DNA of 43,533 bases from a candidate division FCPU426 bacterium (GTDB lineage Bacteria > Oederibacteriota > Muellerivitia > Muellerivitales > Muellerivitaceae), in assembly GCA_030041545.1 (NCBI GenBank), contig JASHNQ010000065.1, positions 1 through 43,533 on the forward strand, read 5' to 3'. Each line of letters starts with the position of its first letter. Position 1 is the stretch's first letter. Positions 17,233 to 40,316 of the stretch are shown one piece after another. The notes under the pieces are model-generated. The model did not search any database. It was not told where the DNA came from and was given only the letters and a program-made list of their open reading frames with translations. The position numbers and the translations under genes are program-made.

Positions 17233-18072
17233 ATGCCCGACGGGAACTTGAACCCAATTTGGGCGCGTTTTTTAAGGCAGAAAAAAGACTTGAAAGCGCG
17301 GGATAAGCTGGCCAGGGCTTATTTTTTCCTGGTCGAAGCCGAAACCCGCCGGATGCTGGCCCGGTTACCTTTGAGAGCCTATTGGGAAAAGAAGGAAGAT
17401 CTCGGATCGGCGGGCGTGATCGGCCTGTTGCAGGCCTTGGATCATTTCACACCTCCGAAGGACAAACGCCATGATCCGGGCCGGGCTTTCGAGGCTTACG
17501 CCCGTTACCGCATCCGAGGGCAGATGGTGGACGAATTGCGGAACTTGGATTTCGCACGCCGCAACCTGCGCAAACAGGCCCGGGCCATCCAAGAAGCGGA
17601 AAGAAAGCTGGAGGCCCGTTTGGGACGTTCTCCCCGTGAAGAGGAAACGGCCAAGGCCCTGGGCATCCCCTTAAGCGAGCTTTACGACTGGGTTGCCGAG
17701 ATCAACATGTTGAACCTTCTTTCGTTGGACGCGGAAATCGCCGAAGGAGGGGAAGGCGGCTCTTGGGCCGACCTACTGGCGGACGCTAAGGCCGAGAATC
17801 CGCTTGATAAAGTTGAGAAACAGGAGAAAATTGAAAAGGTCGCGGAAGCCCTCAAGTTTTTGGGGGATGCGGAGCAAAAAGTACTCCATTTTTATTACGT
17901 CGAGACGCTGACTTTCAAGGAAATCGGAAAGATTTTGAAAATTAGCGAATCGAGGGTTTGCCAGGTTCACCATATGGCTGTTTTTCGTCTGCAGGAGATG
18001 TTGGACGAAAGGAGGAAGCATGGCGTTGCTCAAGGACGTGAACGGATACACGACCATCACTACCGAAAGTGA
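17233..18072 (+). CDS. fliA: RNA polymerase sigma factor for flagellar genes (FliA/WhiG, sigma-28)
   Basis: The 279 residues show the FliA layout. Region 2 (about 25-105) includes the block FEAYARYRIRGQMVDELRNLD, region 3 has LRKQARAIQEAERKLEARLGR (about 112-132), and region 4 ends in a helix-turn-helix (about 228-252, TFKEIGKILKISESRVCQ). It should direct the promoters found before flgM, flgD and flgE. Its anti-sigma FlgM is encoded at 30902. The 3' end overlaps the next gene by 53 bases, an unusually long overlap. The Shine-Dalgarno before the ATG is weak. Confidence 0.95.
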   Translation: MPDGNLNPIWARFLRQKKDLKARDKLARAYFFLVEAETRRMLARLPLRAYWEKKEDLGSAGVIGLLQALDHFTPPKDKRHDPGRAFEAYARYRIRGQMVDELRNLDFARRNLRKQARAIQEAERKLEARLGRSPREEETAKALGIPLSELYDWVAEINMLNLLSLDAEIAEGGEGGSWADLLADAKAENPLDKVEKQEKIEKVAEALKFLGDAEQKVLHFYYVETLTFKEIGKILKISESRVCQVHHMAVFRLQEMLDERRKHGVAQGRERIHDHHYRK

Positions 18073-30808: not shown

Positions 30809-30835
30809 TCAAGTTTTGCCCTCCAGAACCGTTAG
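30809..30835 (+). promoter_or_regulatory. Sigma-28 promoter for flgM-flgN-flgK-fliK
   Basis: The -35 box TCAAGTTT (30809-30816; 7 of 8 to TAAAGTTT) is followed by exactly 11 bases and the -10 box ACCGTTAG (30828-30835; 5 of 8 to GCCGATAA). Two further sites in this window share the same spacing and the CGTTAG ending. Transcription would begin about 60 bases before the flgM ATG. FlgM inhibits FliA, so this would be a feedback loop. Confidence 0.78.
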
Positions 30836-30901
30836 AAATAACAGAAAAGGGTTTCCCGGCTTTCCCTGGGCGGCCCAGTTTTAAGTTTTAAGGAGTCAGC
30901 T

Positions 30902-31195
30902 ATGCGCATAGACGGGTTTCAAAACATTCCGGCCGTGCTTCAATCCTACCAGTCCGGTCCATCATCCCAAAATGGTTCCGCCAACAACGCAAATGGATCG
31001 GCCGCTTCGGTTTCGTTGAGTTCCTTCGCCGAGATCCTGCAAAACCTCCAGAGGGAAGCGGCCCAGGCTGGGGCGAATCGCCAGGGAAAGGTGGAACAAC
31101 TGGCCCAACAGGCGCAAAACGGCGGTCTATCCGTGGATTTGGAAAAGCTGGCCACGAACCTGGTGAACGCCCAGGTGGTCAACACCCAGGGATAA
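30902..31195 (+). CDS. flgM: Anti-sigma-28 factor FlgM
   Basis: The 97-residue protein has a Ser/Asn/Gln-rich, probably disordered N-terminal half. The C-terminal part carries the FlgM pattern: R60-Q-G-K-V, then GLSVDLEKLATNLVNAQV (75-92), matching RxxKVxxL, then VDxxKIAxxL in known FlgM. It would bind FliA (17233) and be exported through the hook-basal body to release it. TAAGGAG precedes the ATG. The flgN chaperone and flgK follow, as in many bacteria. The family is divergent, so the call also uses context. Confidence 0.85.
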   Translation: MRIDGFQNIPAVLQSYQSGPSSQNGSANNANGSAASVSLSSFAEILQNLQREAAQAGANRQGKVEQLAQQAQNGGLSVDLEKLATNLVNAQVVNTQG

Positions 31196-31198
31196 GGG

Positions 31199-31684
31199 AT
31201 GAGCGAACTGATCCAATCCCTCGTGGAAAGCCTGAGGCAGGAGGCCGGGCATTACCGCCGTTTGGCGGCGCTGGCCGACCAGCAAAGGGAACTGCTGGTG
31301 GCGGGAAAACTGGAATCCCTGCCGGGAAACCTCCGGCTGGAGGAGAAAGAGGTCTTCGAGCTGACGCCCCTGGTGGCGGCGCGCAACGGATTTTTGGACA
31401 AGATCGCGAAGACCCTGGGGATGGAGAAAATCGGTTTGGGGGAAGCCTTGGAAAAGTCCCCCGCGGACCAGGCGGGGGAATTGAGGGCGGCGGTCACGGA
31501 ATTGGTGCGGTCCGCCCGGCGGTTGGAGGAGATCAACCGCCTCAACGAGAAACTTTTGGGCAACGCGATGGCGGAAGTGAAATTCACCTTACGGGTGATC
31601 CGAAACGGCGGCAAAGCCAAGTCACCCGCAATTCCGGGCGCGCCGGAAGGCAACAAGCCTTCCTACGTGAACCGGGTCGTTTAA
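31199..31684 (+). CDS. flgN: Flagellar export chaperone FlgN
   Basis: FlgN is the cytoplasmic chaperone of the hook-filament junction proteins FlgK and FlgL. The 161 residues are mostly helical: LIQSLVESLRQEAGHYRRLAALADQQRELLV at the N-terminus, then a charged three-helix pattern and LNEKLLGNAMAEVKFTLRVI near 120-140, typical for the family. The C-terminal tail is Pro/Gly-rich. It starts 3 bases after flgM and is followed by its client gene flgK after 10 bases. Confidence 0.9.
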   Translation: MSELIQSLVESLRQEAGHYRRLAALADQQRELLVAGKLESLPGNLRLEEKEVFELTPLVAARNGFLDKIAKTLGMEKIGLGEALEKSPADQAGELRAAVTELVRSARRLEEINRLNEKLLGNAMAEVKFTLRVIRNGGKAKSPAIPGAPEGNKPSYVNRVV

Positions 31685-31694
31685 GGAGGCCGGT

Positions 31695-33956
31695 ATGATC
31701 AACAGTTTACAAGGCATCTACACCATCACCAGCGGGCTGATCCTGCAAGAATTGGAACAGGAAATCACCGCCTCCAACATCGCCAACGCCGGTTCCTCCG
31801 TGGATTCGGACGGGTATTTGATGAACAGCCTTGAGCAAGTGAACGTGGGTTCGGGGACGGAACTGACGCTTTCGAGCGACGGGAGCTATTACCAAGTGGG
31901 GACCGGCCCCACCGTGGAATCCGTCACCAGCTTGCGCAGTTCGTTCCTGGACTCCCAAATCCAGCAGGAAAGCACGATCGTGGGCTATTACGAGATGCTG
32001 GCGAATTCCCAAGGGACCGGCGTCCTGAATTCCATCGAAAATATCGTGGACGGCTCCACGACGCTGAACACGGCCTTGGATAATTTCGCCTCGGCTTGGG
32101 CCGCCCTGGGGTCCAACGCCGATCCCGCCACGGACACGACCGACGAGGCCAGCGTGGTGCAGGCCGGTGAAGCCTTCGCCCAATTGGCCAACAGCCAGTT
32201 CAACCAGTTGGAGAACCTGCAGACCTCCAATAGCCAGCAAATCAACAGCACGGTGACGCAGATCAACACCCTCCTCCAAGACCTGTCGTCCATCAACCGG
32301 CAGCTTTTGAGCACGCCGGGCTCCAACCAAAACAGCCTTTTGGACGCCCGCGATTACGACTTGGACAGGCTTTCCCGCCTCGTCAACATCCAAAGCAATT
32401 ATGGCACTAACGGCACGGTCAGCGTGTATTTAAGCGGCAGCAACGTGACCCTGGTGGACGCGTCCGGGGCGGCCATCTTCCAAACCAATGTCACCAACGC
32501 CAATTACCCCAACCTGGTGGGCATCAGCATCCAAACCCCCGAGGGGGGAACTTACAGCTCGGACGCCAACGGAACCCCCACGGACGAGATCGCGCAGTAC
32601 ATTACGGGGGGCAATTTAGGCGGGGAACTGCAGGGCCAAAACACCATTTTAAGCTATATGGAGCAGGTCGACCAAATCGCCACTTCCGTTATCAACGTGA
32701 CCAACAACCTCGAGGAAGCCGGCTACGCGTCGGATGGAACCACCACGGGGACTCCTTTCTTCACGGGCACGGGCGCGGCTAGCATCGGCGTCAACGAGGC
32801 CATCATCAACAACAACTCCTTGATCGGCGCCGCGATCAGCCCCAACAGCCCCACGAACGGGCAGGTGGCCCAGTTCCTGGGTAATTTGCCCAACATCATG
32901 GCCGATAACTTCGTGGAAAGCGACATCAGTATCGGCGCCGGTATCAATCCCGCGGAGGCCATCGGGGCCCAAAATTTCAACACTGCCCCAAGCGCGGCCG
33001 GCGAATTCACGGTTAATGGCGTGGCGATCAATTGGACCAACACCGAAAGCATCGACCAAATCCTCAGTCAAATCAATTCGGTTTCCAACGTTTACGCCGT
33101 CTACAACGCCACCACCAACCAGTTTTACATGTATTCCGACAATCCGATCACCATCACGAATGTTTCGGGCAATTTCACGACTTGGGGCGATATCGCCAAC
33201 GTCCTGACCAGCAGCATTCAAATGAATAATTATGAGGCCGGCGATACGCCCCTGATCGACGCGGGCCCTTTTTTCGGCGGCAATCCCGCCGCGTCGCCCA
33301 TGGATTCCACCGTGCCGGATTCCGCCCCCTACTATGACACCGGCCCTAACAGCATCGCCTTTAAGGTGGTGCCCAGCGCGAGCGGCGAGTTCACGATCAA
33401 TGGCCAGGACTTTTCTTGGACCAATAAGATGTCCTTGAATCAAGTCGGCGCCTTGATCAACAACGCCAATTGGACCGGGGGTTACAGCATCGCTTTTAAT
33501 TTCAATCCGGCCACCCAGACCGTCACCTTGACTTCCGCCCAAAATACCCCCAACGGCTCACCCGAACCCATTGAAATCAGCGATATCACCGGCAACTTCA
33601 CGGTGTTCACGGGCCTGAACGCCTCCAACGAGACGCTCGGGGGCCTGACTTCGGGTTTGACCAGCCAAATCGCCTCCAATACCTCGGCGGAGCAGAGCCT
33701 GCAAAGCCAGGCCCAAAACTCGTTAACCCAACTGAACAACGCCCAGGCCAATATCGCGGGGGTGTCCACCTCGAGCGGCCAGGCGGGGGTTTCCATCGCC
33801 ACCCTCGAGGAGGATGCCACGCAATCCATGATCGCTTACAACGCCATGCTGGAGGTGTTGCAGGCGATCGACGACATGTACGTGGATTTGGTGAACGTCT
33901 TGGGCGGGGCCGCCTCGGCCCCCACTTTGACCCAGGAGTCAACGTCGACGACGTAA
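31695..33956 (+). CDS. flgK: Hook-filament junction protein FlgK (HAP1), enlarged
   Basis: FlgK joins hook and filament. The N-terminal domain has TASNIANAG (25-33) in place of the usual SNNIANAN. Junction-protein blocks follow, such as NSIENIVDG, ALDNFASAW and LLDARDYDLDRLSRLVNI. The C-terminal helix includes VSIATLEEDATQSMIAYNAMLEVLQAIDDMY. At 753 residues it is longer than the usual 550. The excess lies in the centre, where two related domains (about 425-510 and 552-645) repeat the pattern ASGEFTINGxxxxWTNxxSxxQ, like the flagellin-IN domain. AAGGAGG precedes the ATG. flgL is not adjacent. Confidence 0.93.
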   Translation: MINSLQGIYTITSGLILQELEQEITASNIANAGSSVDSDGYLMNSLEQVNVGSGTELTLSSDGSYYQVGTGPTVESVTSLRSSFLDSQIQQESTIVGYYEMLANSQGTGVLNSIENIVDGSTTLNTALDNFASAWAALGSNADPATDTTDEASVVQAGEAFAQLANSQFNQLENLQTSNSQQINSTVTQINTLLQDLSSINRQLLSTPGSNQNSLLDARDYDLDRLSRLVNIQSNYGTNGTVSVYLSGSNVTLVDASGAAIFQTNVTNANYPNLVGISIQTPEGGTYSSDANGTPTDEIAQYITGGNLGGELQGQNTILSYMEQVDQIATSVINVTNNLEEAGYASDGTTTGTPFFTGTGAASIGVNEAIINNNSLIGAAISPNSPTNGQVAQFLGNLPNIMADNFVESDISIGAGINPAEAIGAQNFNTAPSAAGEFTVNGVAINWTNTESIDQILSQINSVSNVYAVYNATTNQFYMYSDNPITITNVSGNFTTWGDIANVLTSSIQMNNYEAGDTPLIDAGPFFGGNPAASPMDSTVPDSAPYYDTGPNSIAFKVVPSASGEFTINGQDFSWTNKMSLNQVGALINNANWTGGYSIAFNFNPATQTVTLTSAQNTPNGSPEPIEISDITGNFTVFTGLNASNETLGGLTSGLTSQIASNTSAEQSLQSQAQNSLTQLNNAQANIAGVSTSSGQAGVSIATLEEDATQSMIAYNAMLEVLQAIDDMYVDLVNVLGGAASAPTLTQESTSTT

Positions 33957-33964
33957 GGGAAAAA

Positions 33965-36900
33965 ATGAGCAGCCTGAGTAAACTTTTAAACTTACTTTCA
34001 ACTTCCCCTAAGGACGCCACCGGCGTTTTGGGGGGACAGGGTACGGTCGCGCCCAATGGCTCCCCGACGGGGGGCAACGGGTCCTTCCAGGATGTCCTGG
34101 CCCGCCTCGCCAACGGGAACCAGGGCGCTTCCAATCCCGTTACTACCCCCCCGGGTTCCACTTCCCAGGCCCCGGCCGGGCAGCCGGGGTTGACCGCCGA
34201 TGCTTTGGGAGGGGGTGGGCCCGTCGAGGCCTTTTCCGAAACAACGATCGCGGTCGCCGAATCCGTCAAGGCCTCCAACCCCCAACAGATCAACCAGGCG
34301 GAGCAGGCGCTGGCCTCCCTGGTGGTGGGTGTGGCCCACGTCATCAGCCTCCTGTCCCAAATGCAGCAAGGAAATGCCCAACAGGCCCAGGACAGCCTCA
34401 AAGCCTTGGGAGCGGGCCAGGCCGCCCTCCCGGGCCTCCAAAATCTCCTCAACCAGGCGCAGGCCCATCTCCAAAACCTTCCCGCGGGGCAGAACCCCCT
34501 GGCCCTCCAAACCGGCCAGCAAACGGCCCTTTTGGGGCAAATGTTCCAGCAGATGGTCCAAAACCAGCAGGTCCTTTTAGGCGTTGCCCCGGCCGCCCAA
34601 ACGACCGGTTCCAATGCCGCCCAAACCGGAACGGGGGGCGGAGCCGCGTCGAACGCCGTGTTGCAAGTGCTCTTTTCGGAGGCCCAGGCCGACGTGACCC
34701 AGGGACAGGGCCTCCAAGCTTCCCAGGTTTTCATCAACCTGCAGACGTTCAAGATGACGGCCACCTTTATCCAGGCGGGCCAGGGCGCCAACCCCCAGGC
34801 CCAACCCCTCCAGTCCCAGGCGTTGTTGAACAACTTGAACCAGGCTTTGGCCAACCTCGCCCCCGCCAACAACGCGGCAACGGGCGCGAATACGGCGCAA
34901 GCGGTTCCAGCCGCGGGCGCCTTGGCCGCCGCTTCCCAAAGCGACTTGGACCAGAACTTCAAGAACCTGGTCCAGATCCTCATGCAATCGGGGGTGGGGC
35001 AGGCGACCTTGACGACCTTTATGCACCAGCAGCAAGCGGCGAATTTGCCCCCCGCGGCGGGCCAAGCCACGGCAACCCCCGCCGCCGTTTCAGCCAATAA
35101 CCTCACCCAGGCTCCCGCAGCCGAAGCCGAGATCCAGCCGGCCAACCCGGTCGAATGGACGGCGGCGGCCGCCAACAACGCGGATACCTTGGCCGGGCGG
35201 CAACCCGTTGAAAATGCGGCTCAACAAGCCGCCGTCAACCTGGTTGCCCCAACCGCGAACTTAGGCGCCCAAACACCCTTAAATCCGGCTCAGGGAAACC
35301 AGGCGGCGGCCGCCAACAACGCGGATACCTTGGCCGGGCGGCAACCCGTTGAAAATGCGGCTCAACAAGCTGCCGTCAACCCGGCTGCCCCAACCGAGAA
35401 CTTAGGAGTCCAAACGCCCTTAAATCCGGCTCAAGGAAACCAGGCGCCCGCGGCGCCACAACAGCCCCAGGCGGTTGAAGGGTTGAACCCCAATGAGGCG
35501 GCTAACCATGCGATGGCTCCCGCGAATGCTCCTTTGCCGGCCGCTGCTCCGGGCGCTAACGCCAACGCCCTGGGGGAGGAAAACCCCCAAAACCAGGCGA
35601 ATGGAGCCGGGGCCCAAGCCCCCCCTCCCCAAGCCGGGGGTTTGACCGCCGGGGAAATCACGGCCTTGAACGATACGGTGGCGCGGTTGAACGCCACCGC
35701 TTTGAACGCGGTGGGGGGGGGCGCGGGCGGCAATGCCGCGCCTAACGGTCCCACCCTCACTATGGACCAACTCCTGTCTTCCTTGGCCGCAACGCGCGTG
35801 GGAGGGGGCCAACCGCCCACTTTCGGGAACCCCTTCCCCGTTAATCCGCCGGCCGCTCTGGCCCAGGCGAATTTGCCGGTCAACAACGCCGCTCCTGCCC
35901 AGCCGAACTTGATTGTCAACACGGCCGCTCCCGCCAACCCCGGGGTTCCGCTCCAGGCCACGGCCAACGCCGCAGTAGGCCTGACCGGCCTCACCAACAC
36001 AACCCCATCGGTCGGTACTTCCTCGGGGCCGGCCTTGAGCGTTTCTCCCCTTTTGGTGGAACCGATCACCCCCTCCACCCAGCCCGGGCTTCCGGCCGAG
36101 GGCGCGGCGCCGGTCAACCCGACTCTATTCGCAAATGGCGCCGGGGCCTTGAACCTCTTGGGAAACAACAACGCCAATCCCGCGGTTGTGCCCGGTGAGG
36201 TCGTCGCCAACGCCGTCAATCCCAATCCGGCGCCGGCCGCCTCCGCCACGACCGTTGTGCCCCTGCCGCAGCCCGCGACCCTTCCCGCGGGTGTTACCGT
36301 TCCGGCGGGGCAGGCCAACACTCCCGCCGGGTTGGGCCCAGCCGCCCCCACGATCTTGAACCAGGCCATTAATCCCGCGCCCACTTCCCAGGCCCCGGTT
36401 GTTCCCACGGCCGCCATGGCGGGAGAGGGGATGAAAACCGAGATTCCCGCGACCACCGCGCAAGGAAACGTGAATTTCGCCAATCCCTCGGCGGTGGCAA
36501 GCGCCCAGCCTTTATCCTCCGTTATCCCCGTTGCCCCGGAGGCGGTCGCTCCCGCGGGAACGGTTTTGGAAACGGGGCAGGGTACCCTTAACGCCTTGGA
36601 CGCAAACAGCCTGAACAACTCGGCCGTCTTGCAAGCGGGGACGCTTTTGGCGCTTTCCAACGCCGCCAACCAAGCCGCGGGAAACACCCATACCACCTCC
36701 CCGGCGGCCCTTTCCGTGGCTTCCGGCGGCAACTTTGACACGGTCAGCCTTTTGGGACAGATTTCCCAACAGATCGCGGCCCAAACGGCCCAGGCCGGCG
36801 CCGTCTCCCGGCTGAATTTCCAGCTTATTCCCGAAACCCTGGGGCGGGTGACGGTGCAAATCGCGCTGGTGGACCAATCGGTTTCCGCCCGCATCGTGGT

Positions 36901-37180
36901 CACCAACCCGGACGTCCGGGATGCCCTCCAATCCCATATGGTGGACCTGAAATCGGCCTTGAACCAGGCCGGCCTCCAAATCGACCAGTTACAGGTGCAG
37001 GTGGGGGGCGGAGGGGGCAATCTTTTGGCCCAGTACTACCAGTACCAGCAGGAAGGCTCTGGATACCGCCTTCCGGTCTCCCTGGCGGCCACCGGCACCG
37101 AAGGGGCCCAAACCACTGAAAATACGGCGAATACAGGGGGCATAGCAGGGCGGTTGTCCTTGGTCGATGTCTTGGTCTAA
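33965..37180 (+). CDS. fliK: Flagellar hook-length control protein FliK, very long
   Basis: FliK measures the hook and triggers the FlhB switch. The C-terminal domain (about 915-1025) is clear: VSRLNFQLIPETLGRVTVQIAL, then RDALQSHMVDLKSALNQAGLQIDQLQVQV. Ahead of it lies a very long low-complexity region rich in Ala, Asn, Gln, Pro and Gly, bringing the total to 1071 residues; most FliK proteins have 300-500. A 47-residue unit is tandemly duplicated at about 400-493 (DNA 35161-35442). The N-terminal start (MSSLSKLLNLLS) follows flgK by 8 bases. A terminator lies downstream. Antisense frames open across it are composition artefacts. Confidence 0.92.
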   Translation: MSSLSKLLNLLSTSPKDATGVLGGQGTVAPNGSPTGGNGSFQDVLARLANGNQGASNPVTTPPGSTSQAPAGQPGLTADALGGGGPVEAFSETTIAVAESVKASNPQQINQAEQALASLVVGVAHVISLLSQMQQGNAQQAQDSLKALGAGQAALPGLQNLLNQAQAHLQNLPAGQNPLALQTGQQTALLGQMFQQMVQNQQVLLGVAPAAQTTGSNAAQTGTGGGAASNAVLQVLFSEAQADVTQGQGLQASQVFINLQTFKMTATFIQAGQGANPQAQPLQSQALLNNLNQALANLAPANNAATGANTAQAVPAAGALAAASQSDLDQNFKNLVQILMQSGVGQATLTTFMHQQQAANLPPAAGQATATPAAVSANNLTQAPAAEAEIQPANPVEWTAAAANNADTLAGRQPVENAAQQAAVNLVAPTANLGAQTPLNPAQGNQAAAANNADTLAGRQPVENAAQQAAVNPAAPTENLGVQTPLNPAQGNQAPAAPQQPQAVEGLNPNEAANHAMAPANAPLPAAAPGANANALGEENPQNQANGAGAQAPPPQAGGLTAGEITALNDTVARLNATALNAVGGGAGGNAAPNGPTLTMDQLLSSLAATRVGGGQPPTFGNPFPVNPPAALAQANLPVNNAAPAQPNLIVNTAAPANPGVPLQATANAAVGLTGLTNTTPSVGTSSGPALSVSPLLVEPITPSTQPGLPAEGAAPVNPTLFANGAGALNLLGNNNANPAVVPGEVVANAVNPNPAPAASATTVVPLPQPATLPAGVTVPAGQANTPAGLGPAAPTILNQAINPAPTSQAPVVPTAAMAGEGMKTEIPATTAQGNVNFANPSAVASAQPLSSVIPVAPEAVAPAGTVLETGQGTLNALDANSLNNSAVLQAGTLLALSNAANQAAGNTHTTSPAALSVASGGNFDTVSLLGQISQQIAAQTAQAGAVSRLNFQLIPETLGRVTVQIALVDQSVSARIVVTNPDVRDALQSHMVDLKSALNQAGLQIDQLQVQVGGGGGNLLAQYYQYQQEGSGYRLPVSLAATGTEGAQTTENTANTGGIAGRLSLVDVLV
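35161..35442 (+). repeat. 141-bp tandem duplication inside fliK
   Basis: Copy 1 is 35161-35301 and copy 2 is 35302-35442, each exactly 141 bases (47 codons). By eye they differ at about 8 positions (roughly 94% identical), with the first half identical. Each copy encodes the pattern from AAANNADTLAGRQPVENAAQ to LNPAQGNQ. The unit keeps the frame, so it lengthens the linker of FliK. Confidence 0.95.
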
Positions 37181-37218
37181 AGGCAGGATGAGTCCTGAAA
37201 GCTTGGTCTTTTGGTATG

Positions 37219-37245
37219 AAAAAGCCCTGAAATGATGGGTTTTTT
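37219..37245 (+). terminator. Intrinsic terminator after fliK
   Basis: AAAAAGCCC (37219-37227) pairs with GGGTTTTTT (37237-37245) around a 9-base loop, with one G-T wobble; the T tract is part of the arm. It ends the flgM-flgN-flgK-fliK unit, 38 bases after the fliK stop and just before the flgD promoter. Confidence 0.7.
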
Positions 37246-37248
37246 CAA

Positions 37249-37275
37249 TTAAGTTTTTGGCTTAAGAGCCGTTAG
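37249..37275 (+). promoter_or_regulatory. Sigma-28 promoter for flgD
   Basis: TTAAGTTT (37249-37256; 7 of 8 to TAAAGTTT), then 11 bases, then GCCGTTAG (37268-37275; 6 of 8 to GCCGATAA). This is the best of the three sites. It begins 4 bases after the fliK terminator, and transcription would start about 20 bases before the flgD ATG. Confidence 0.82.
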
Positions 37276-37302
37276 AAAACTTTAGAAAGAGAGGTGGTTG
37301 AA

Positions 37303-37749
37303 ATGGCAATTTCAGGAGTCGGGAGTTCGAGTTCCAACAGCAGTAGTGCGGTCGCCAATGAGCTCGCTGCGACGTCGAACAACAGCCAATTCGTTTCCGA
37401 GAACGAGTTTTTAACGCTTCTGGTCGCGCAGTTGGAGAACCAAGACCCGTTGAACCCGCAGGATCCCACCCAGTTTGTCAGCGAATTGGCTTCGTTTTCG
37501 TCGCTGACGGAAATGACGCAGATGAACCAAAACTTCAGCAGCGTGCTGGATAATTCGGCGGTGAGCCTGATCGGCCAGACGGTCACGGTGGCGGACTCGA
37601 GCGCTCAATCGGGATACACGACGGGCGTGGTTTCCGGAGTTGTTTATTACTCCAATACGCCGGCGGTCCAGGTGGATGGGGTGAATTACCCCTTGTCGGC
37701 CATCCAAAACGTCGGGAGCGTCAGTTCGGACGCGTCCACGGGCGGGTGA
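37303..37749 (+). CDS. flgD: Flagellar hook-cap protein FlgD, short form
   Basis: FlgD caps the growing hook. The 148 residues keep the conserved N-terminal part NEFLTLLVAQLENQDPLNPQDPTQFVSELASFSSLTE (about 40-76). After it come only about 70 residues, including the start of the Tudor-like part (SLIGQTVTV). The Ig-like domain of larger FlgD proteins (about 230 residues) is missing, as in some Firmicutes. The frame is open from a GTG at 37294; the ATG at 37303 has AGGTGG 7 bases upstream and is preferred. Confidence 0.93.
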   Translation: MAISGVGSSSSNSSSAVANELAATSNNSQFVSENEFLTLLVAQLENQDPLNPQDPTQFVSELASFSSLTEMTQMNQNFSSVLDNSAVSLIGQTVTVADSSAQSGYTTGVVSGVVYYSNTPAVQVDGVNYPLSAIQNVGSVSSDASTGG

Positions 37750-37785
37750 CGACCATTAAGTTTTAGAAGGGCGGGTGAGGACAAA

Positions 37786-38196
37786 GTGGTACAGCAGGTC
37801 AACTTTAACAACCCGCCTTCCAACGCGGTGGAGAACGCCCAAAGCCAGGCCCAGTTGCAGATCATGCAGCAACAGGCCAGCCAGGCGGCCCAAACCGCGC
37901 AACCCTTCGACGCGATCCTGCAATCGACGGTGGGGAACACGGGGGCGCTGAAGTTTTCGGCCCACGCGAAGGAGAGGTTGAACCTGAGGAACATCAACCT
38001 TTCGGCGGACGACTTGGACCGCATGAACGACGCGGTCAACATGGCGGCCTCCAAGGGGGCCCAGCAGTCCCTGCTGGTGATGAACGACCAGGCTTTCATC
38101 GTGAGCGTGCCCAACCGCACGGTCATCACGGCGATGGACAGCGGAAGCATGAAAGAGAACGTCTTCACCAACATTGACAGCGCCGTGATTGTTTGA
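37786..38196 (+). CDS. Flagellar operon protein TIGR02530 family
   Basis: The 136-residue product has a Gln/Ala-rich N-terminal part. The conserved block starts near residue 56: KFSAHAKERLNLRNI, then DLDRMNDAVNMAASKGAQQSLLV, and ends with ENVFTNIDSAVIV. This matches the TIGR02530 (putative flagellar) family, encoded between flgD and flgE in many bacteria, as here. Its function is not established; a role in hook assembly is inferred from position. The start is GTG with GTGAGGA 4 bases upstream. Confidence 0.87.
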   Translation: MVQQVNFNNPPSNAVENAQSQAQLQIMQQQASQAAQTAQPFDAILQSTVGNTGALKFSAHAKERLNLRNINLSADDLDRMNDAVNMAASKGAQQSLLVMNDQAFIVSVPNRTVITAMDSGSMKENVFTNIDSAVIV

Positions 38197-38197
38197 C

Positions 38198-38224
38198 TCA
38201 AGAAATACCGGATGTGGACGTTAG
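38198..38224 (+). promoter_or_regulatory. Sigma-28-type promoter for flgE
   Basis: TCAAGAAA (38198-38205), 11 bases, then GACGTTAG (38217-38224). The -10 ends in CGTTAG as in the flgM and flgD sites, and the spacing is identical; the -35 keeps TNAAG. It starts directly after the stop of the TIGR02530 gene. The leader would be about 95 bases and include both hairpins below. Confidence 0.68.
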
Positions 38225-38250: not shown

Positions 38251-38312
38251 CGGGCTGGACCTCCTTGAGGGAGCCCGAAATCCGGATGGGCTGATCGCCC
38301 ATCCCCATTTTT
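38251..38312 (+). promoter_or_regulatory. Two tandem hairpins in the flgE leader
   Basis: Hairpin 1: CGGGCT (38251-38256) pairs with AGCCCG (38272-38277), with an inner CCTC/GAGG stem (38260-38263, 38267-38270). Hairpin 2: GGATGGGC (38284-38291) pairs perfectly with GCCCATCC (38297-38304) around TGATC. Hairpin 2 is followed by TTTTT (38308-38312) and then AGGAGG, 6 bases before the flgE ATG. It could attenuate transcription or control ribosome access. Confidence 0.6.
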
Positions 38313-38324
38313 AGGAGGAAGAAC

Positions 38325-40316
38325 ATGGGTCTTCGAGACATGTACAGCGCGATTTCCGCACTCGACGCCGACAGCACGTGGCTTGACGTGATCGGAAACA
38401 ACATTGCCAACGTCAACACGGTGGCCTACAAGGCCAGCCGGGTTGAGTTTTCGGACCAATTCAGCCAGACGCTTGACGGCGCGACCGGGGACGACCCGGC
38501 GATCGGCATGGGCGGAACGGACCCCGAGCAGGTCGGCCTGGGGACGAGGATTAACGCCATCCAGACGCTTTGGACGGAAGGCACCTTGCAGAACACGGGC
38601 GTTTCCACGGACATGGCCATCGTGGGAGACGGGTTTTTGGTTTCCAAGCAAGGGGACCAAACCTACCTGACCCGCGCGGGCGACCTGACCTTCGACAGCG
38701 CCGGCAACCTGGTCGACGCGAACGGCGGCCTCATCCAGGGGTTGACGGCCACCATCCAATACACCTCGAAGGATATCGGGTTCGACCAGGGTTTTGGGGC
38801 CCCCAACCCCTTGCCCACGGGAATAGCCGACACCGCCGCCAACGAAGCCGATCTTTGGCTCACCAGCGCCTCGTTGGGCTTTGCCACCGACAGCGCCTCG
38901 GACGCCACGGACATCAATATCACGCGGACCATGACCATGCCGGCCAGCGCGACTTCGGTCATCAATTTCTCCGGCAACCTGGATTCCTTCCTACAGGCGA
39001 CCGATAACGCGGAGGGCGGCGTCTTTAACCTGGGGGACGGAACCGTGGCGGACCCGGCCACGCTGCCCCTTGGGTTGGCGGGCGCGACTTTCAACGCGCC
39101 TCAAGGCGACGCGGTCTTCGACTTTGATGAGCCGGCCGCGGGCGAGAAGTATCTCCAGCAACTGCGGAACGCCAATACGGGGTTGTTTGGTGTCGCGACG
39201 AACGCGGGGAACGTAGCCGATTATAAGACCGATGTGGAGACCGAGGCGTATCTGGCGACTCCCGTCGGGAACGTGCAAACGATCCAGGCGGCGCAAGCGG
39301 CCGGAGAGACGGATTTTGTTTGGGACCAGCAGCCCCCGGAAACTCCTGCCGACCAGACCACGGAAACGGTTTACGGTTCGAACGGCAATCCCTACCAGAT
39401 CACCATCCAATTTTACCAGGTGAACGATTTGGGCGACGGGGGAGTCAATAACCCTAACGGGCCCAACCAAGCGGTTTACGCCTGGTACGCCTTCAACACC
39501 ACCAACGGAGCCGCGGTTTCAACGGCCACCTTGGTGGGCGGTACCGGCATCCTGGAGGGGGACGTCAATGGCGCGGCCTATAACCGCGGACAAGATGGCG
39601 CCTCGTTCTGGGGCGACTTTTTGGTCTTCAATACCAATGGCACGCTCCTCTCCACGGGAGGGGCGGAAAACAACGGCGCGCAGGCCGTCCCGGATATTTA
39701 TATTCCAAACGAGAACGTGAACGGCGCCGTTCCTGGGCTCAACGGGGATATTGCCCCATCTTCGCCCCTGCCAACCCAGGGCTCGCAGGTTGTTCAAATC
39801 TCCCTCAACTTCGGCCAGGCGGGCATTTTGGGGGACGGCGAGAGCAACGGCCTTTATAGCGAGGCCGAGGGAACCTACCAGATCGTCAACGGCGTCAACA
39901 CCTATGTGCCCAACTCCACGGCCTACGCCGCGAGCCAGAACGGTTTCACGGAAGGCCAGCTTGAGAGCGTCCAATTCAACTCCGCGGGGCAGATCGAGGG
40001 GACCTTCTCCAACGGCCAGACCACGGCCATCGCCCAAGTGATCCTCGCCATGCCGAACAACCCCGGCGGGTTGATCAGCGTGGGGGACAACTACTACCAG
40101 GCTTCGTCGAATTCCGGCGCCATGTTCGTGGGGTTCGCGGGCCAGGAGGGCGTCGGCACCGTCCAAGGGGACACTTTGGAGCTTTCCAACGTGGACCTGA
40201 CCACGGAGCTGACCAACATGATCATCGCGGAACGCAGCTTTGACGTGAACTCCCGCGTGATCGCCGTTGAGAACGCCGACCTGCAGACATTGGCCCAGTT
40301 GGGCCAGGGCGGCTGA
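38325..40316 (+). CDS. flgE: Flagellar hook protein FlgE, enlarged
   Basis: FlgE builds the hook. The ends are canonical: GNNIANVNTVAYK (24-36) and VDLTTELTNMIIAERSFDVNSRVI (about 625-648). The block TEGTLQNTGVSTDMAIVGDGFLV (about 84-106) is the usual hook/rod core. At 663 residues it exceeds the usual 400, with large Asn/Gly/Thr-rich surface domains in the middle. AGGAGG at 38313-38318 lies 6 bases before the ATG. The gene has its own sigma-28-type promoter and structured leader, and a strong terminator follows. Confidence 0.95.
   Translation: MGLRDMYSAISALDADSTWLDVIGNNIANVNTVAYKASRVEFSDQFSQTLDGATGDDPAIGMGGTDPEQVGLGTRINAIQTLWTEGTLQNTGVSTDMAIVGDGFLVSKQGDQTYLTRAGDLTFDSAGNLVDANGGLIQGLTATIQYTSKDIGFDQGFGAPNPLPTGIADTAANEADLWLTSASLGFATDSASDATDINITRTMTMPASATSVINFSGNLDSFLQATDNAEGGVFNLGDGTVADPATLPLGLAGATFNAPQGDAVFDFDEPAAGEKYLQQLRNANTGLFGVATNAGNVADYKTDVETEAYLATPVGNVQTIQAAQAAGETDFVWDQQPPETPADQTTETVYGSNGNPYQITIQFYQVNDLGDGGVNNPNGPNQAVYAWYAFNTTNGAAVSTATLVGGTGILEGDVNGAAYNRGQDGASFWGDFLVFNTNGTLLSTGGAENNGAQAVPDIYIPNENVNGAVPGLNGDIAPSSPLPTQGSQVVQISLNFGQAGILGDGESNGLYSEAEGTYQIVNGVNTYVPNSTAYAASQNGFTEGQLESVQFNSAGQIEGTFSNGQTTAIAQVILAMPNNPGGLISVGDNYYQASSNSGAMFVGFAGQEGVGTVQGDTLELSNVDLTTELTNMIIAERSFDVNSRVIAVENADLQTLAQLGQGG

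Follow-up and report, generated by a model that had tools for sequence, protein, structure and literature searches.

A textbook case of a structure that controls its own genes is the coupling between a finished hook and the export of FlgM. Within the three-class hierarchy of the enteric bacteria (Salmonella/E. coli), flgM of Salmonella also has a class 2 promoter, and FliK serves in Salmonella as the ruler of hook length. Campylobacter, Helicobacter and Vibrio possess a sigma-54 middle class, whose rod and hook genes are held back until the export apparatus is in place.

Sigma-28-type factors have been connected with hook genes in Bacillus subtilis and Clostridioides difficile. The fla/che genes of B. 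subtilis are transcribed from a sigma-A promoter, PA, and from an auxiliary sigma-D promoter, PD3, a weak promoter before flgB that gives positive feedback and is insufficient for motility (PMC3874003). Sigma-D activity in B. subtilis waits for hook completion (PMC4526659). In C. difficile, SigD sites lie before flgM and flgK and sigD is found in the early operon; without SigD the hook-basal body genes, which start from a SigA-like promoter, drop less than 2-fold (PMC3865298).

The locus analysed here, referred to as the window, is a 43.5 kb stretch of DNA, contig C107 of a draft genome (G000; 3.8 Mb, 98.5% complete) of the family Muellerivitaceae (FCPU426). Eight genomes of this family were compared, all of them draft MAGs. 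The FCPU426 cluster has been merged with Goldbacteria, and flagellar genes were already noted there (PMC7031533).

The window resembles the enteric hierarchy in encoding FliA, FlgM, FlgN, FlgK, FliK and an FlhB with an N-P motif. It differs in that its hook genes (flgD, flgE, flgE2) carry sigma-28-like sites, that flagellin and FliD, sigma-28 targets in enteric class 3, as well as FlgL, were not found in the window's family, and that an early promoter of flgM, present in Salmonella, was not detected in the window. As with fla/che of B. subtilis, a sigma-28-type factor would help transcribe the hook genes and its own gene sits in the early operon. B. subtilis has flagellin, however, whereas the window's family has separate sites directly before flgM, flgD and flgE and a hook block outside the early operon. 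PD3 of fla/che is a partial precedent for sigma-28-type control of hook genes. The SigD regulon of C. difficile shares the site before flgM and the sigma gene in the early operon, but hook genes there depend only slightly on SigD. As in Campylobacter, Helicobacter and Vibrio, a second sigma factor would gate the hook genes at a stage before the filament genes; unlike there, the sites of the window are sigma-28-like, and a sigma-54 site before flgM, flgD or flgE was not found. Our search of the open-access literature returned no description of this hook/sigma-28 arrangement.

Organization of the flagellar gene cluster

The flagellar cluster fills the window apart from the final 3 kb, in the order fliG-H-I-J-motA-B-fliL-M-N-(O)-P-Q-R-flhB-A-F-G-PilZ-fliA-fapA-...-flgF-G-A-H-I-J-...-flgM-N-K-fliK-flgD-TIGR02530-flgE. 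The identities of FlgM, FlgN, FlgK, FliK, FlgD, TIGR02530, FlgE and FliA were assigned by HMM.

14–30714, + strand: early cluster fliG-H-I-J-motA-B-fliL-M-N-P-Q-R-flhB-A-F-G-fliA-fapA-flgF-G-A-H-I-J
17233–18072, + strand: fliA, sigma-28, inside the early cluster (TIGR02479, 202.9 bits); sigma-28 site not found nearby
30902–31195, + strand: flgM, anti-sigma-28 factor (PF04316, 1.6e-09; TIGR03824, 40.6 bits against a cut-off of 40.75)
31199–31684, + strand: flgN, export chaperone (PF05130, 3.4e-16)
31695–33956, + strand: flgK, hook-associated protein 1 (PF22638, 3.4e-36; TIGR02492)
33965–37180, + strand: fliK, hook-length control, 1071 aa (PF02120, 1.2e-17)
37303–37749, + strand: flgD, hook cap (PF03963, 1.7e-20)
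37786–38196, + strand: TIGR02530 flagellar operon protein (TIGR02530, 116 bits)
38325–40316, + strand: flgE, hook protein, 663 aa (TIGR03506, PF06429, PF22692)

FliA of the window aligns with solved FliA (6pmi/6pmj, 1rp3) across regions 2–4 and, judged by this alignment and its TIGR02479 score, is a good sigma-28 with the expected regions present. The idea that FlhB had lost its cleavage site was considered and rejected, as the N-P motif reads NPVH in the window and NPTH in relatives.

Three sigma-28-like sites before flgM, flgD and flgE

An earlier sequence-only reading of the window had placed three sites before flgM, flgD and flgE and had stated that FliA and FlgM are both encoded here. The sequence agrees with the former, all three lying at the stated coordinates on the + strand, and the HMM matches agree with the latter.

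30809–30835, + strand: predicted sigma-28-like promoter of flgM, TCAAGTTT-N11-ACCGTTAG, -10 end 66 nt upstream of the ATG
37249–37275, + strand: predicted sigma-28-like promoter of flgD (with the TIGR02530 gene), TTAAGTTT-N11-GCCGTTAG, -10 end 27 nt upstream of the ATG at 37303
38198–38224, + strand: weak sigma-28-like site of flgE, TCAAGAAA-N11-GACGTTAG, one base past the TIGR02530 stop codon

The flgM and flgD sites follow TNAAGTTT-N11-NCCGTTAG, which agrees with the sigma-28 layout (-35 TAAAGTTT-like, 11-base spacer, -10 GCCGATAA-like), and the -35 of the flgE site is TCAAGAAA. Only the flgD site, among the three, has three or fewer mismatches to the full enteric sigma-28 consensus. For the flgM site, gene order suggests an operon running on through flgN-flgK-fliK as the probable unit.

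The genome-wide motif proposed in the sequence-only reading (TNAAGWWW-N11-NCGTTAG) is one base short as written and gave 0 matches. With the spacing restored, TNAAGWWW-N13-CGTTAG matched exactly at 6 positions in the 3.8 Mb genome versus 0 for the reversed control pattern, and 3 of these 6 fall in the window contig, which makes up 1.1% of the genome. Random occurrence across the genome, on which that reading would have been given up, was checked and did not occur. The enrichment it proposed to look for, of flagellin, fliD and chemotaxis genes, was absent; other matches lie upstream of a second flgE and of proteins that look secreted. One exact match, on contig C29, lies inside a coding gene with a score of 8.7 and was rejected as chance. 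A search allowing two mismatches was uninformative (21 matches versus 45 in controls).

A weight matrix was then trained on 17 sites, all taken from other genomes of the window's family, the window's own genome being left out. At 27.4 and 26.4 bits, the flgM and flgD sites exceed the best of 19.7 million random positions (23.5 bits) and are far beyond chance. The flgE site scores 9.7 bits, a value of which about 2.8 occurrences are expected in each window. Its credibility comes mainly from the strong sites that relatives carry at the same position. The window thus holds two strong sites and one weak site with positional support. In the ~30 kb of early genes, the matrix scan found no sigma-28-like site of at least 12 bits.

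Conservation in the family and relocation of the hook block

The motif precedes flgM in each of the six family species where this gene was seen (G000, G025, G027, G028, G029, G030), and it lies at the same place before flgD in all four genomes that have flgD (G000, G025, G029, G030). At flgE the position is occupied in three of four (G000, G029, G030), strongly in G029 and G030; a sigma-28-like site is absent from flgE of G025. In the flagellar clusters of four genomes scanned, the strong matrix sites are all at flgM, flgD and flgE. Among 45 FCPU426 genomes, the strict motif TNAAGTTT-N12-CCGTTAG matches exactly at 12 positions, distributed as 11 in the window's family, 1 in its sister family and 0 in the remaining 36 genomes. 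With one mismatch allowed, it gives 35 matches versus 14 control matches in the window's family, and 20 versus 79 in the other genomes. The earlier proposal of FliA promoters on the hook genes finds good support in the comparison with relatives; its flgE site is weak by sequence.

The hook genes themselves have changed place between families, a before and after that is visible in the gene order. In genomes of five families (G001, G038, G044, G013, G016), the early operon holds flgD and flgE between fliG-H-I-J and motA, and TIGR02530 also belongs to this fliJ-motA hook block in three of the five. In the window's family motA directly follows fliJ, and the genes fliK-flgD-TIGR02530-flgE come after flgM-flgN-flgK, adjoining the sigma-28-like sites. 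Of all the signs that the hook genes entered the late class, this relocation is the strongest.

Second flgE and other genes behind the motif

A second full-length FlgE gene of G000, on contig C66, has the motif (1 mismatch) 64 bp upstream. The flgE2 genes of G027, G028, G029 and G030 are also preceded by sites found with the matrix, and these paralogue sites were not used in building its first version. For two further proteins of G000, on C46 (126 aa) and C79 (141 aa), the orthologues in G028 and G027 have the motif as well. Both genes (L002:1600-1980 and L003:1780-2205) lie behind sigma-28 sites and encode small proteins that look secreted and belong to no Pfam family; their products are candidate flagellar export substrates.

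The motif is also found upstream of a threonine/proline-rich secreted protein in G025, G027, G029 and G026. Genes for this protein were located on G025 C23, G027 C29, G029 C16, G026 C87 and G000 C66:8226-10277, and in G000, G025 and G029 it shares a contig with second FlgE genes. Loci L155, L156, L158 and L159 encode secreted-looking proteins, several with Thr/Pro-rich stretches, which carry a domain like the FlgE middle (D2) and are without D0 ends; the one from G027 (L155) has a sigma-28-like site upstream. A 111-aa mini-FlgE that consists only of N- and C-terminal D0-like ends is encoded behind a sigma-28-like site on C5 of G024 (L167:2951 onward).

Filament genes, FlgE copies and FliK length

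Flagellin_N (PF00669), which also detects FlgL, was found in none of the eight genomes of the window's family, and neither was FliD_C (PF07195), all eight being draft MAGs. The same PF00669 search was positive in E. coli, B. subtilis, Caulobacter, Thermotoga and four other genomes of the FCPU426 phylum; PF00669 and PF07195 are both present in G013, G016 and G020. All 8 family genomes encode CheW-type proteins, and 7 of them FlhA.

Most well-assembled genomes of the family contain two to three full-length FlgE, and most other families one. The additional copies are 47–56% identical to FlgE1 of the window. FliK measures 1013–1079 aa in four family genomes, twice the length of FliK in the flagellin-bearing relatives G013 (492 aa) and G016 (479 aa). 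If FliK is a ruler as in Salmonella, its length suggests a longer hook.

Across the whole phylum, FlhA occurs in 26 of 45 FCPU426 genomes, flagellin in only 4 and FliD in 3. By these gene counts, filament-less flagellar gene sets are common in FCPU426, beyond the window's family. G023 of the sister family (97% complete; L164-L165) has a fliG-to-flhF cluster, yet is without a FlgD, FlgE or FlgG match. Might it build a motor and an export apparatus but neither rod nor hook? For G024, true loss of FlgD and FlgG was considered and set aside, as the cluster runs to the contig end and the absence looks like an assembly gap.

A probable FliA class of hook genes

We consider it probable that the sites are promoters for FliA (17233–18072) and that the FliA class in the window's family is hook, not filament. 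On the best reading, the regulon would comprise flgM-flgN-flgK-fliK, flgD-TIGR02530, flgE, the second flgE and a few secreted-looking proteins. The hook genes, the cap and the ruler thus appear to be made by the very sigma factor that the coupling should restrain. The sequence-only reading saw in this a circular dependency, unless, among other ways out, the checkpoint differs. The strict paradox is not supported: as flgM itself is behind a sigma-28 site and an FlgM-independent promoter was not found, FliA could act before FlgM accumulates, unless transcripts of the upstream genes read through into flgM. Nor does its premise hold that the hook comes first and the filament after it, since the searches of the family detected neither flagellin nor FlgL nor FliD. 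The evidence favours the branch in which the checkpoint differs, and we infer that a hook-first checkpoint must work differently in this family.

In the proposed mechanism, FliA would be made together with the early basal-body genes and would fire first, so that flgM and the hook genes are switched on together. FlgM would then damp sigma-28 up to the moment of its own export through the basal body. The circular dependency would become feedback, and the export checkpoint, if any, would precede hook completion. Because FlgD, FlgE and FliK would themselves be sigma-28 products, hook completion as understood in enteric bacteria could not be the switch that frees FlgM. The FlgM-export checkpoint should lie at or before completion of the basal body or rod, and FlgM would likely be released once one of these is complete. 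More tentatively, and with greater doubt than confidence, gene content suggests that the external part of the flagellum may be built of hook proteins without flagellin, with FlgE in two or three paralogues, FlgK and a FliK ruler of doubled length. The FliA-FlgM switch would have been rewired from gating filament building at the hook stage to gating hook building at the stage of the basal body. The family would be a natural setting in which to ask which checkpoint parts are indispensable, and whether hook protein as the sole outer component is enough for a rotary flagellum to work or to be reused.

The main rival to FliA control of hook building keeps the checkpoint unchanged: an early upstream promoter would mainly read the hook genes, and the sigma-28 sites would be auxiliary promoters providing positive feedback, as PD3 of fla/che does (PMC3874003). 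The genes all share one strand and the gaps between them are short, a strong conserved terminator before flgM or flgD was not found, and flgE of G025, being without a site, must be read from upstream. Against such a reading, the hook block left the early operon for sigma-28 units, each with its own conserved site; a terminator-like hairpin is found upstream of flgD in G000, and flgE2, on another contig, has a site without an early operon upstream. We regard it as unlikely.

Chance matches in AT-rich intergenic DNA have next to no probability. The flgE site alone scores no better than chance, and the C29 match, one of the six exact ones in the genome, falls inside a coding gene, but the scores of the flgM and flgD sites, their positional conservation and the family specificity of the motif refute chance for flgM and flgD. 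A real conserved motif read by a factor other than FliA is hardly more attractive, and we judge it very improbable. Its -10 part, CCGTTAG, is unlike the enteric GCCGATAA, and the guessed flagellin promoters of other families differ (TAAG-N15-NNCGAA). The two-box layout with its 11-base spacer fits sigma-28, however, the sites stand at flgM, and the motif is nearly absent outside the window's family. Residues in FliA regions 2.3–2.4 differ between the window's family and others, which could explain the shifted -10.

Other promoters, hairpins and the flgE leader

Simple consensus searches upstream of flgM, flgD and flgE found no sigma-70- or sigma-54-like promoters. Terminators isolating flgM and flgD were considered and rejected: no clear terminator was found upstream of flgM, and the single hairpin, before flgD in G000, is not convincingly conserved.

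37216–37247, + strand: terminator-like hairpin GAAAAAGCCC..GGGTTTTTTC between fliK and flgD, from its fold; conservation in relatives not clear
38251–38304, + strand: conserved two-hairpin 5' leader of the flgE mRNA, second hairpin terminator-like in G000

The flgE leader matches no Rfam family. Its two-hairpin form occurs in four family genomes (the window, L090:2477-2556, L092:10110-10189 and L087:2965-3040), and the second hairpin shows a compensatory change, judged by eye. Attenuation or translational control of the hook appears as a possible role for this leader.
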